Positions 44,060 to 48,955 of a stretch of 50,935 bases of DNA are shown here, piece after piece (position 1 is the stretch's first letter; every line of letters begins with the position of its first letter). The stretch covers positions 1 to 50,935 of the forward strand of contig CAUYTY010000066.1 of NCBI GenBank assembly GCA_963575655.1, in the 5' to 3' direction. The position numbers were made by a program, and so were the translations under genes. The stretch comes from Gammaproteobacteria bacterium (lineage in GTDB: Bacteria > Pseudomonadota > Gammaproteobacteria > CAIRSR01). The notes under the pieces are model-generated. The model searched no databases. It saw only the letters and a program-made list of their open reading frames with translations, and had not been told where the DNA came from.

Positions 44060-44812
44060 TTATCTCTCCGTCAATGTCGTCGCCACGGCAGCAAGCCACA
44101 CTTTCAATTCTGATGGTGAGCTGATGTGGAACTGTGCTAGTAGTGATGGCGGATTACCAATCTTGATGGAAATCCCCTCCATGCGATTAATCACTTGGAA
44201 TCCACTTTCGTCAGTAACATCATCTCCGGCAAAGATGGGTATCCGCCCAATATAGGGGGGAATCGCCATGAAACGTTCAATGGCTTTACCTTTGTCGGCA
44301 TCCGCAGCGATGATCTCAACGACACTGTGGCCGGCGAGCAATCGGAAATCTTCTCCCAATTCTCGCATAGCGTATTCCGCTAGTGACCACGCATCAGGCT
44401 TGAGTTCAGGATTTTGACGATAATGCAGGGCAAGCGATTGAGATTTCTTTTCGATGAGCAGGCCAGGTAAGTGATACGCTCGCTCCTCAATCAATGGAAC
44501 GATATTGGTAATCGCCTCGTGCCGATGGCGGTCGTTCGGTATTGTGGTCCCGGCATGACGCCACTCGATACCATGAGTTCCCGCAGCATCGAATTGTCCC
44601 GAAAACATGCGATCGATATCCGTCAGCGCACGTCCACTAATCAGTGCCAATGCCCCGTCGAGTGCCTGACGGAGAACGCTCAATAGCGCCGGAAGAGTAG
44701 CAGAGATAATAACACTATCAGGCGTTTGGGCGATATCAATGAGGGTTCCATCAATATCCAGGAACAATGCCCAGTGACGACGATTCTCGATTACGGGAGG
44801 GGCTGCCCTCAT
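44060..44812 (-). CDS. otsB: Trehalose-6-phosphate phosphatase
   Basis: OtsB removes phosphate from trehalose 6-phosphate. The 250-residue HAD enzyme has motif I FLDIDGTLIDIA (nucleophile Asp in DIDGT), motif II ALISGR, GTHGIEWRH, a conserved Lys in the cap, and motif IV IFAGDDVTDESGF. It overlaps otsA by four bases (ATGA) and is abutted by the GH15 gene. The set otsA-otsB-GH15 is a common proteobacterial trehalose operon. Confidence 0.94.
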   Translation of the reverse strand: MRAAPPVIENRRHWALFLDIDGTLIDIAQTPDSVIISATLPALLSVLRQALDGALALISGRALTDIDRMFSGQFDAAGTHGIEWRHAGTTIPNDRHRHEAITNIVPLIEERAYHLPGLLIEKKSQSLALHYRQNPELKPDAWSLAEYAMRELGEDFRLLAGHSVVEIIAADADKGKAIERFMAIPPYIGRIPIFAGDDVTDESGFQVINRMEGISIKIGNPPSLLAQFHISSPSELKVWLAAVATTLTER

Positions 44813-47064
44813 TTTTCCTCTCCTTGTTTGCGATTATCGGATGATGTCTCAACAGCAGCGATGTGTGCCTCGATCCGTTGGCGTTTACGCATCCGGGCAG
44901 CGTCGAGCAACATACGCCCCGCCCAGAAATAGATATTATGCTCGCCAACCATATCACGCATGAGCCTCATCCGTTCCTGTCGCTGCTCAATCGGCATAGT
45001 GAGACCACGATGAAGGGCCTCACCCATGGAGTTACTGTCATAGGGATTCACAATCAATGCCTCAAGTAGTTCACGCGAGGCCCCGGCAAAGATACTAAGG
45101 ATCAAAACTCCATCCTCATCATCACGAGCGGCGACAAATTCCTTAGCAACTAGATTCATACCATCATGCAAACTGGATACTAGACAGAGATCGGCGGCCC
45201 GATATAGCATAAAGACCGCATCAGATTCGTGGTGTTTGGCTGATAGAATAATGGGTACCCACCCCTCGATTCCGAAACGCTCATTGATGGTACGCGCCAT
45301 TTGTTCGGCTTCCAGTTGGGTGTTGCGATAGACAGGAAGCCGGCTTCGGGTAGGGGCAGCGATTTGCAGCATGGTAAAGCGACCAATCCACTCAGGGTGA
45401 TTTTCCAACAAGTTTCCAACAGCGCAAAAGCGATCTGCAATGCCTTTGGTATAGTCAAATCGCTCGACGCCCACCACCAACATTGTATCCGCCATCAGAC
45501 CGTATTGGTGGCGAATCATGGCGCGACACGCTGCAATTGAAGGTTGATTAGCCAAAGCCGCTGGCGGCCATTCAATCGAGATTGGATAAGGACGCACCAC
45601 GGTAGTACTGGCGCCAGTACTCACCACACTCTGTTCACGGTTGATATTACATTCCAAGAAACGGTCTACTGATTCCAGGAAGTTAAGACAATGGAATTGT
45701 GTATGGAAACCAAGAATTGAACTTCCCAGCATTCCCAACAAAATCTCCTCACGCCATGGACAGATACTAAAGGCCTCTGGATTTGGCCAAGGAATGTGCC
45801 AGAAAGTGATGATAGTGGCATCAGGGAGGCGTTCGCGTACCATACGTGGTAGCAGAGCAAAGTGGTAGTCCTGAACCAAAACTACTGGGTTGGGAGTAGT
45901 GGCCTCAGCCACTACCGCATCAGCGAATTTGCGATTCACAGCGACGTATTGCTCCCAATCGCTGGCACGAAAAATTGGTCGCACGAAAGCAATATGACAA
46001 AGTGGCCATAAACCTTCATTGGCAAAGCCGTAGTAATAACCATCCTGTTCCTTCTCGGACAACCATATTCTGCGTAGGATGTAGACGGGAGCCTCAGGAG
46101 GTACTCCAAGACGATTATTGGCATCAACGGTGCGATTATCGGCCGAACCGCTGCCGTGGGCGATCCAGGTCCCACCACAAGCCCGACAAATGGGCTCAAG
46201 GGCGGTTACTAGACCACTGGCGGGGCGTTGAACAACAATACGGCCGTCCTCTTCCTCGTTATGGATGTAAGGCTCGCGATTGGATACCACAATTACCTGC
46301 GCCTCGGGCAATTCATTGCGCAGTAAAGTGCGTAGGCTCTCAGGACTCCAGTCGATGCGAATGGCATCAGCCACACTTCGCGGCACGTCAAGGTCACGCA
46401 ACATTTTGCGTACCTCACGCACCAGCGGGGCGATTTCTGGTTCCAGAAATGTGTCTGTCTGACTTTTCTCGGAAGTAACTAGGCCGTTGCGCACGGCTTG
46501 GACCCAGCCCTTCAGCATCACTCGTGCGACAATGATGGTAATTATCGCCACCACCACTCCCAACACTGCGAGAAATACCGCCATATATTGTTCAGCCGTA
46601 GAGCTACGGCGCTCGATAAACATGAGATCATGAACAATAATCAGGCGTCCCAATTCGACATTATCCACCGTTAGGGTAAAAACTGCTGCCAATACCGGTC
46701 CCGCCTCTAAATGTTCCACCGTGAACGTTTTCTTGCTCGCAGTGGAGGGCAACGGACAAGATAAAGCCTTGGGCCATTCTGATGAGCGGTGCGACAATAC
46801 TCCATTTGGCATACATAAGCCCAGTGCCAACAACCTCTCATCACGAGCAATCCGGCGAAACAAACCATCAATTTTACTATTTTCTTTGGATGCGATCATG
46901 GCGTTAACCGTGTCTTGAATCGAGTCAAAAAGCAGTTGCGACCGTAATTCAACATCAGTACGAAACCAACGTTGCACCAGTTCTCCCACCAGGGGGGCAG
47001 TACCCCAGGCGATTCCGCCAAGAATGGTAAGGAGCGGAAAAATAAACCTTAAAGCCATACGCAT
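44809..47064 (-). CDS. otsA: Membrane-anchored trehalose-6-phosphate synthase (GT20)
   Basis: OtsA joins UDP-glucose and glucose 6-phosphate. This 751-residue protein is far longer than the usual ~470. Residues 1-250 form a sensor-like front: a span at about 6-26, a periplasmic domain of about 130 residues, a second span at about 160-184 and a HAMP/linker-like part. The GT20 domain starts near 256 (VIVVSNREPYIHNEEEDG) with VQDYHFALLPRM, VERFDYTKGI and HDGMNLVAKEF. The donor loop reads PASGLVTAL, where OtsA has a GG pair, and GTWIAHGSGSADN replaces the standard acceptor segment. Trehalose-6-phosphate is still likely with OtsB behind it. AAGGAG precedes the ATG. Confidence 0.88.
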   Translation of the reverse strand: MRMALRFIFPLLTILGGIAWGTAPLVGELVQRWFRTDVELRSQLLFDSIQDTVNAMIASKENSKIDGLFRRIARDERLLALGLCMPNGVLSHRSSEWPKALSCPLPSTASKKTFTVEHLEAGPVLAAVFTLTVDNVELGRLIIVHDLMFIERRSSTAEQYMAVFLAVLGVVVAIITIIVARVMLKGWVQAVRNGLVTSEKSQTDTFLEPEIAPLVREVRKMLRDLDVPRSVADAIRIDWSPESLRTLLRNELPEAQVIVVSNREPYIHNEEEDGRIVVQRPASGLVTALEPICRACGGTWIAHGSGSADNRTVDANNRLGVPPEAPVYILRRIWLSEKEQDGYYYGFANEGLWPLCHIAFVRPIFRASDWEQYVAVNRKFADAVVAEATTPNPVVLVQDYHFALLPRMVRERLPDATIITFWHIPWPNPEAFSICPWREEILLGMLGSSILGFHTQFHCLNFLESVDRFLECNINREQSVVSTGASTTVVRPYPISIEWPPAALANQPSIAACRAMIRHQYGLMADTMLVVGVERFDYTKGIADRFCAVGNLLENHPEWIGRFTMLQIAAPTRSRLPVYRNTQLEAEQMARTINERFGIEGWVPIILSAKHHESDAVFMLYRAADLCLVSSLHDGMNLVAKEFVAARDDEDGVLILSIFAGASRELLEALIVNPYDSNSMGEALHRGLTMPIEQRQERMRLMRDMVGEHNIYFWAGRMLLDAARMRKRQRIEAHIAAVETSSDNRKQGEEK

Positions 47065-47104: not shown

Positions 47105-47512
47105 TTATTGTGTTAATGGAGTCTTAGGCGAGACGCGTAATTCCTTTAGAAATGATGAAGTGGCCATACCCGCTGCACCACTAACCATTGACATACCGCA
47201 GGACAATATTGAGGCGCCGATCACGTAACCTATCCCAACAGATGTTGCCACACCATTAGCCATAAATCCTAATGCTGGCGCTACACTTACCATTATTCCC
47301 GCCGACGCCCCAGCAATACAACCAATGATCAGCGAATCAGAACTAATAAAATTGTCCCCCCGCCGGATTAGCAACACCGTTTCTTGGACCGCCTCACTCA
47401 CTGGGCCAGTGAGGAGTAACAACATTTCGGTATCGAGGATACTGGCACGGACAGGCGTCACTATTAGAAATCCGGCGGCAATCATTGCAAACTTTTGACT
47501 GGTTCGTATCAT
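47105..47512 (-). CDS. Small glycine-zipper membrane protein A, unknown family
   Basis: The 135-residue protein has a signal-like N-terminus (residues 7-24, ending VRAS), a charged stretch, and then a Gly/Ala-rich membrane part with FISSDSLIIGCIAGASAGI. It has a second Cys exactly 40 residues after the first. A strong AGGAGAT site precedes ATG 47512, which supports it as real. It is a paralogue of the next gene upstream and shares a gapless core with it. The Gly-xxx-Gly spacing suggests helix packing or oligomer formation in the inner membrane. It ends 40 bp before otsA on the same strand, so they may be co-transcribed. I recognise no family. Confidence 0.75.
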   Translation of the reverse strand: MIRTSQKFAMIAAGFLIVTPVRASILDTEMLLLLTGPVSEAVQETVLLIRRGDNFISSDSLIIGCIAGASAGIMVSVAPALGFMANGVATSVGIGYVIGASILSCGMSMVSGAAGMATSSFLKELRVSPKTPLTQ

Positions 47513-47580
47513 AAGAGATCTCCTATAAGTTAGGTTATAGATACGGCCACCTCTATTACTTTACGCAAACTGCCATCTGG

Positions 47581-48012
47581 TCACTTAGAGGAACTAAGCA
47601 ACCACGCGGTAAGAATGGCCACGCCGCCACTAGCCGCGCCTACTCCACATCCTAGCCCGGTCAAATTCACTAATAAATTGACACTCGCAGGAACACCAAC
47701 CCCCGTTACCATAGCACCGGCAAGGGGGAGACTTCCTGCGAGAATTCCGGCAGCAGCCCCGGCGGTACAACCAATAATCACAGTATCCAGGCTGATAAAA
47801 TAGTCCTCACTCGCTACGATGGGGGCTGTCGGTTGGATAGTCGGTGTCACAGGCACAGCTTTTACTTCATGTACCATTCCCTTTTCATTTTCTACATAGT
47901 CTGCTGGAGGCTCACGGGAAAGTTCTGGAACAAAAACTAGTAGCCCTATACCAAGAACCACGGTTAAAATTCCGCCCAATATCGACTGATACCACACTCG
48001 TTGAGAACGCAT
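47581..48012 (-). CDS. Small glycine-zipper membrane protein B, unknown family
   Basis: The 143-residue protein has an N-terminal membrane anchor (about residues 9-28), a Pro/Glu-rich linker, then a C-terminal Gly/Ala-rich membrane part with FISLDTVIIGCTAGAAAGI. A second Cys is 40 residues after the first (TGLGCGVGAASGG). It aligns without gaps over about 51 residues with the neighbouring protein A (about 21 identities counted by eye). GAGGT lies nine bases before its ATG. It begins the minus-strand run that continues into otsA. It could sense membrane tension, form a small pore or modify OtsA; there is no direct evidence for any of these. Confidence 0.75.
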   Translation of the reverse strand: MRSQRVWYQSILGGILTVVLGIGLLVFVPELSREPPADYVENEKGMVHEVKAVPVTPTIQPTAPIVASEDYFISLDTVIIGCTAGAAAGILAGSLPLAGAMVTGVGVPASVNLLVNLTGLGCGVGAASGGVAILTAWLLSSSK

Positions 48013-48267: not shown

Positions 48268-48466
48268 CATCGTTCCCACGCTCCGCGTGGGAATGCATCC
48301 CGCGACGCTCCTGCGTCGCGTGTCTCGAAACACGGCACATCCATTGTGGTGATTCCGTTCCATGCGGTCATATACAACAATGACTTCCGGCTTGTCCGTG
48401 ATCCCCACCAATACGCGACGCAGGAGCGTCGCGGGATGCGTTCCCACGCGGAGCGTGGGAACGATG
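48268..48466 (-). mobile_element. 199-bp palindrome-ended nonautonomous element, copy 2
   Basis: The ends match those at 3846-4043 (CATCGTTCCCACGCTCCGCG and its inverted partner), but the roughly 90-bp core is reversed relative to copy 1 (GACTTCCGGCTTGTCCGTGAT). Similarity of the cores after reversal is high. It has inserted between the two arms of another inverted repeat. Confidence 0.8.
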
Positions 48467-48955
48467 TAACAGAATTGGTAACTGTTTGTTAGAAAACAGA
48501 ATTCCTTAACTTAATGGCAGTGAGGGCAACACCCTGGTCGAAGATTTAAAATTTCTAGCCGTCCTGAAAGGGCGGCAGTATCTACATAACACCCTGTACC
48601 CGCGCCCTTTCAGGGCGCGATTTTTGAGGTGACTCCAAACCCATGGCGTTTCACGTCCTTGTATCCTCGACTCTGACAATCCCGGCTGGCTCCCCCTAAC
48701 TCTCCAAGCGACTTCACCCCCCGTAAGCGTTCACTCCCCTCTGGGAGCGCGGCCGTCTCGCCCGCTCTTGTGCGGCCAAGATGGCCGCGCTCCCAAGGAG
48801 ATCTGAACGGTGACCACCCCCGCCCCCCTTTCCTGTTAAGGAGAGGGGGGTTAGGGGGTGAGCTTAGGGGGAATGAATGATTACGAAGAAAAAGGTGCAC
48901 TGGGTAGCAATTTGGATTAAATTAGTAATAAGCAACGGAATCAGCATCCCACCGC

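Follow-up and report, generated by a model that had tools for sequence, protein, structure and literature searches.

Two adjacent small genes, A and B, lie next to otsA in the stretch of DNA analysed here (the window, 50,935 nucleotides, from a CAIRSR01 gammaproteobacterium), and their similar build raises the question of whether the encoded membrane proteins are true relatives and which process they serve. The initial annotation had aligned them without gaps over about 51 residues. The gap-free alignment was recovered and extends to 87 residues (A36-122 with B53-139), 21 residues being identical within the shorter stretch, and both the motif FIS.D..IIGC.AGA.AGI and the distance of 40 residues between the two cysteines of each protein were exactly as described, relatives having a spacing of 40-43. 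Smith-Waterman comparison of A with B gave a score of 156, against a mean of 36 in 2000 shuffles (maximum at most 73, z 18), and z was 14 with the Gly/Ala-rich, low-complexity cores alone. A matched B at E 4.5e-12 in a search of its own genome, and the two seven-member profiles aligned with an hhalign probability of 98.8 (E 1e-16). A and B are true paralogues. The coordinates of these and related features are given in Table 1.

Table 1. Coordinates of the genes and domains discussed in the text (window positions; L-numbers denote loci in other contigs)
Feature	Position	Strand	Description
Gene A	47105-47512	-	135 aa; signal-like N-terminus, then conserved LLL.GP.SEAVQET.LL.RRG, then two-Cys glycine-zipper domain (Cys65, Cys105)
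Gene B	47581-48012	-	143 aa; hydrophobic helix near the N-terminus (residues 10-28), followed by a Pro-rich linker and the two-Cys glycine-zipper domain (Cys82, Cys122)
Paralogous two-Cys core of A, residues 55-126	47135-47350	-	ungapped alignment with B; hhalign
Paralogous two-Cys core of B, residues 72-143	47584-47799	-	ungapped alignment with A; hhalign
B-A intergenic gap, 68 bp	47513-47580	-	B upstream of A
E5	L085:4561-5070, L086:8186-8695, L087:10310-10999, L088:7725-8213, L090:10909-11352, L091:6181-6765		

Seven orthologues of A share 33 invariant columns; B likewise has seven orthologues, one of them truncated by a contig end. The proline singled out as conserved, 14 residues past the first cysteine, was indeed invariant in A but was shifted by one residue in one B. 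Similarly, the distinction between a signal in A and an anchor in B fits the window's genome, where B begins with a strong helix and a long linker, but it is not constant, the N-terminus of B being short and signal-like in the alphaproteobacterial relatives. Short hydrophobic helices with a Gly/Ala-xxx-Gly/Ala pattern occur in both proteins, and AlphaFold2 modelled them as helical hairpins with low confidence (mean pLDDT 57-59). As the initial annotation had supposed, the pattern matched no family in Pfam, NCBIfam, PHROGs or PADLOC, and PDB sequence searches returned chance-level HlyE matches only. The order and strand of B and A are identical in CAIRSR01 and Achromatium, and the genes overlap in one genome (G002), so the two are probably read as one transcript. 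Upstream of B, the window carries palindromic REP-like repeats (CGTTCCCACGCTCCGCGTGGGAA and GCGACGCTCCTGCGTCGC) in inverted orientation (48268-48467).

The position of the pair had been taken to point to osmotic or membrane stress, and A and B might on that view be co-regulated with trehalose synthesis; in the window's genome otsA, otsB and a glycoside hydrolase 15-like gene do lie directly downstream. In its GTDB family, however, the three further genomes had A and B adjacent to each other, with folB, rsmH/mraW or spoT as neighbours (read from translations), not otsA, while the remaining loci had an acyl-CoA dehydrogenase and a MlaA-like gene, or a kup-type transporter (named from translations). 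With trehalose genes near no other A-B locus, synteny refutes a general link, and a role in trehalose-associated stress is most improbable. The pair itself persisted, A and B occurring together in all seven genomes that carry them. They point the same way in Achromatium, in which the end of a contig truncates B, and are divergent in two alphaproteobacterial metagenome-assembled genomes (MAGs).

Several features of these neighbourhoods are recorded here in their own right. The window's OtsA (44809-47064) has about 250 extra N-terminal residues with hydrophobic segments before its GT20 domain (256-721), resembling a membrane sensor input. In the second genus, a compact C-B-A operon begins with a DUF2061 membrane gene (L011:10570-11118 in G002, L012:9321-9941 in G003); in G001 this gene has no such linkage (C111:31690-32103), and none was detected in the genome of the window. 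In the gammaproteobacterium G002, a PBP_like_2 periplasmic binding protein and a partner without family match adjoin C-B-A (L011:7673-9577); the same two lie in the alphaproteobacterium G1059 beside a signal/anchor two-Cys pair and a Xan_ur permease (L140:89-2118), and in G060 a further homologue of the binding protein is located in the vicinity of the single two-Cys gene (L092).

A-B was carried by seven genomes: all four of CAIRSR01, Candidatus Achromatium palustre and two alphaproteobacterial ('Acetobacteraceae') MAGs. Two of the four CAIRSR01-family genomes are the 'Thiotrichales' lake MAGs KR_bin-0880 (G002) and KR_bin-4016 (G003). A scan of the contigs of 84,980 species with conserved A peptides recovered five loci only (KR_bin-0880, KR_bin-4016, Ca. 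A. palustre and the two 'Acetobacteraceae' MAGs), B adjoining A in each; the genome contig scan with B alone and the viral contig scan with A gave no match. When genomes around Achromatium were searched with A, 1 of 142 had it, and around the alphaproteobacterial MAG G059 it reached real significance in 2 of 195. Matches at E 0.001-0.01 in four alphaproteobacterial genomes were inspected and treated as chance.

A weak match of the B profile in A. palustre led to a second, unlinked locus, a cassette of four signal-peptide genes with five domains built like those of A and B: E1, E2, a two-domain E3 and E4. Searching with a profile of the cassette domains (A3) detected it in all seven A-B genomes. 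The order and architecture (single, single, double, single) were the same in CAIRSR01, Achromatium contig C38, both 'Acetobacteraceae' MAGs and a block of Azospirillaceae genomes described below; in Achromatium contig C37 the first two cassette genes are fused. Across 56 aligned cassette domains, both cysteines, one Glu between them (G-P-x-E) and one Gly were invariant. The cysteines are 49-50 residues apart in the cassette and 46-49 in other two-Cys genes. Every fully read domain has two of them, the sole single-Cys case being the contig-cut B of A. palustre. Cassette proteins, like A and B, had no match in Pfam or NCBIfam. The B profile matched E1 of A. palustre at E 2e-6, and hhalign gave probabilities of 58-86 for B with E and weak values for A with E; A and B are probably homologous to the E cassette, and we propose that A, B and E1-E4 form a two-Cys glycine-zipper superfamily.

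In a tree of the domains, E1, E2, E3a, E3b and E4 grouped by position across classes and not by organism; E1 split into a gamma- and an alphaproteobacterial branch, and each other position formed one group. A. palustre has two complete cassette sets, one placed within the CAIRSR01 branches and the other mostly with alphaproteobacterial branches; the A. palustre rows are long, and their exact placement is unsure. The position-wise tree and the two A. palustre sets are best explained by an old cassette that was passed between lineages as a unit.

These results also bear on the suggestion that A and B are a bacteriocin-like or toxin pair. The proteins are small, Gly-rich, paired and furnished with two cysteines, and models of pore-forming colicin and of HlyE were matched at chance level. 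Their translations, however, show typical signal peptides or anchors and no double-glycine leader, the neighbouring ORFs include no recognisable immunity or dedicated export gene, and there was no match to PADLOC, Pfam or NCBIfam models, so that neither genes nor families speak for bacteriocins or defence. Moreover, related proteins are multiplied within one genome at unlinked conserved loci, and the family is conserved across classes without rapid divergence. We give this possibility hardly any credence.

The cassette is restricted to few lineages. It was present in 4 of 369 Gammaproteobacteria sampled, all of them CAIRSR01, and in 1 of 385 Alphaproteobacteria, four more of which had a single domain. 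The Azospirillaceae were located with an Azospirillum 16S rRNA from an A. oryzae plasmid (match to G369, 96% over 463 bp). Among 82 genomes of this family, three (G1060, G1061 and G1062) had the full cassette and G1063 had it truncated at a contig end; these four entries are consecutive, and the others gave single or weak matches only. A-B was not found in this block, where two-Cys genes of a different kind occur, some signal-type and some anchor-type. Beyond the named carriers, the cassette was absent among about 830 sampled proteobacteria, the 142 genomes around Achromatium having been searched with A alone. Some alphaproteobacterial loci (L093, L094, L095, L096 and L148) have two-Cys glycine-zipper genes without a cassette, possible ancestors or remnants. 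G1059, beside the cassette-bearing Azospirillaceae, has an adjacent signal-type and anchor-type two-Cys pair (L140:4090-5188) and no cassette, and may be a non-calcifying sister or an incomplete genome.

Descriptions of intracellular carbonate in Achromatium go back to the 1890s. CAIRSR01 and Achromatium are independent carbonate-forming lineages, and the hosts of the cassette or A-B comprise these two, the Azospirillaceae block and the further 'Acetobacteraceae' lineage, phenotypes being assigned by lineage from published work (PMC11773610, PMC4806510) and not per MAG. Magnetotactic bacteria with intracellular amorphous calcium carbonate (iACC) have been placed in the GTDB order CAIRSR01, the Chromatiaceae and the Azospirillaceae, and KR-bin-0880 and KR-bin-4016 cluster with the iACC-forming magnetotactic morphotype 3 of CAIRSR01 (PMC11773610). 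Candidatus A. palustre accumulates carbonate (PMC4806510). In the Azospirillaceae there is one iACC clade, several MAGs of which have magnetosome genes (PMC11773610). We infer that the cassette block is this clade, since a single consecutive block, in which two of the four genomes have magnetochrome, fits it. The iACC inclusions of magnetotactic bacteria of both classes are bounded by a lipid bilayer (PMC11773610), and the carbonate of Achromatium sits in periplasmic pockets (PMC6995342); membrane-bounded inclusions, periplasmic in Achromatium, fit exported membrane proteins. A published search for the gene ccyA in genomes of iACC magnetotactic bacteria and of Achromatium was negative, and comparative studies have proposed no alternative candidate genes for Achromatium (PMC11773610, a 2025 survey).

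We therefore favour, with moderate confidence, the reading that A, B and the E cassette are exported small membrane proteins that make the iACC inclusions of Pseudomonadota, lining or shaping the carbonate compartment. Against it weigh the moderate profile link between A/B and E, the single-domain homologues without a cassette in some Alphaproteobacteria, the lack of A-B in the Azospirillaceae block and the low confidence of the structure models. A wider proposal, whose chances we judge to be evenly balanced, is that the formation of membrane-bounded intracellular carbonate in Pseudomonadota has its genetic basis, or a part it cannot do without, in the five-domain cassette together with A-B, that this set passed as a cassette between Alpha- and Gammaproteobacteria, the two Achromatium versions coming from two sources, and that it predicts unseen chalk formers such as the 'Acetobacteraceae' MAGs. 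The independent cases are limited to about three carbonate lineages, with the 'Acetobacteraceae' lineage serving as a prediction.

The same hosts might instead share another trait that the family marks, such as sulfur globules, large cells or a habitat where oxic and anoxic layers meet in stratified lakes and sediments, its proteins then building periplasmic structures unrelated to carbonate. Achromatium stores sulfur besides carbonate (PMC4806510), the KR MAGs were recovered from stratified lakes, in their anoxic zones (PMC11773610), and exported proteins are believed to form a coat on the globules of purple sulfur bacteria (PMC6995342). Yet the single A-positive genome in the set around Achromatium, which is expected to include many sulfur-storing Chromatiaceae, would count against a sulfur trait, most bacteria of such habitats lack the cassette, and it occurs with its gene positions conserved in hosts that are only distantly related. 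We regard such a shared trait as unlikely.

A further reading makes A-B and the cassette accessory magnetosome proteins, comparable to the glycine-rich small proteins of the magnetosome membrane. Magnetochrome domains (PF18509) exceeded the cut-off in G000-G003, G1060 and G1063, so that by this marker the genome of the window counts as magnetotactic, but its pair (C66) and cassette (C67) lie on other contigs than magnetochrome (C41, C201). In addition, G059, G060, G1061 and G1062 have the cassette and no magnetochrome, and the non-magnetotactic Achromatium (G058) has the cassette with magnetochrome below the cut-off. Given its presence without magnetochrome over the cut-off in these five genomes, the cassette does not track magnetosomes. 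A magnetosome function, largely refuted by Achromatium, was rejected after the magnetochrome scan, and we hold it to be very unlikely.

In the likeliest account of how the proteins would act in carbonate storage, each domain forms a short hydrophobic glycine-zipper hairpin held by its two cysteines, which probably form a disulfide outside the cytoplasm, the N-terminal signals or anchors directing entry into the membrane. Packing of the Gly/Ala faces could then yield hetero-oligomers of the A-B pair and the five domains of E1, E2, E3 (two domains) and E4, and these would line the carbonate-holding membrane pocket or vesicle and give it its shape. They may also set nucleation or ion passage, and the invariant cassette Glu would fit a role in lining or with ions. 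The main alternative on mechanism keeps the process and changes the role, the proteins being an ion-conducting complex (for Ca2+, H+ or bicarbonate) in the inclusion membrane and not a structural lining. Several small membrane proteins able to hetero-oligomerise, the same Glu between the cysteines and the requirement, set out in published work, that ions cross the inclusion membrane (PMC11773610) would all suit conduction; on the other hand, the proteins resemble no channel or transporter family, and the structure models are too weak to show a pore. Conduction is a tentative possibility that we consider somewhat unlikely.

Calcyanin, the ccyA product of cyanobacteria, was reportedly described in 2022 as a protein with repeated glycine-zipper domains. 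Compared by description only, the present family resembles it in these repeats, in the tie to intracellular amorphous carbonate and as a phylogenetic marker, and the occurrence of A-B and the cassette in carbonate-forming lineages is a likeness by analogy only. In contrast to calcyanin, there are several exported proteins here, each domain has two cysteines, and the inclusions of the hosts have a lipid bilayer; published searches did not recover ccyA itself from the iACC magnetotactic and Achromatium genomes (PMC11773610). The Gly/Ala-xxx-Gly/Ala pattern in short hydrophobic helices is shared with the generic glycine-zipper 2TM families of Pfam, but no such model matched A, B or the cassette proteins. 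MamC, MamD and Mms6 are short, hydrophobic, Gly-rich proteins of a mineral-enclosing membrane, and thus alike in type; the proteins studied here differ in having no matching Pfam or NCBIfam model, in the two-Cys signature and in their presence without magnetochrome genes. SgpA-C, of the sulfur globule envelope, are exported hydrophobic proteins around a periplasmic inclusion. This likeness, drawn in part from PMC6995342, is offset by the missing family match, the absence of A from almost all genomes around Achromatium and the paired cysteines in every domain.

To our knowledge, A, B and the cassette are the first concrete gene candidates for intracellular chalk in these proteobacteria, the giant Achromatium included, and a cassette that marks independent carbonate lineages makes an old question directly testable. 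If the carbonate reading is true, it would speak against a purely convergent origin and point to horizontal transfer of a shared toolkit, and metagenomes could be screened for unseen carbonate-storing bacteria.

Three further genes were seen around the cassette. E5, conserved and without family match, follows it in CAIRSR01 and, on the opposite strand, in both 'Acetobacteraceae' MAGs. In three of the four CAIRSR01 genomes the gene immediately before it is membrane glycosyltransferase-like (L085:138-1736, L087:6480-8123, L088:10697-12277), and just upstream of it A. palustre encodes a protein with cadherin and RTX calcium-binding repeats that is about 1,670 residues long (L044:2-5032).
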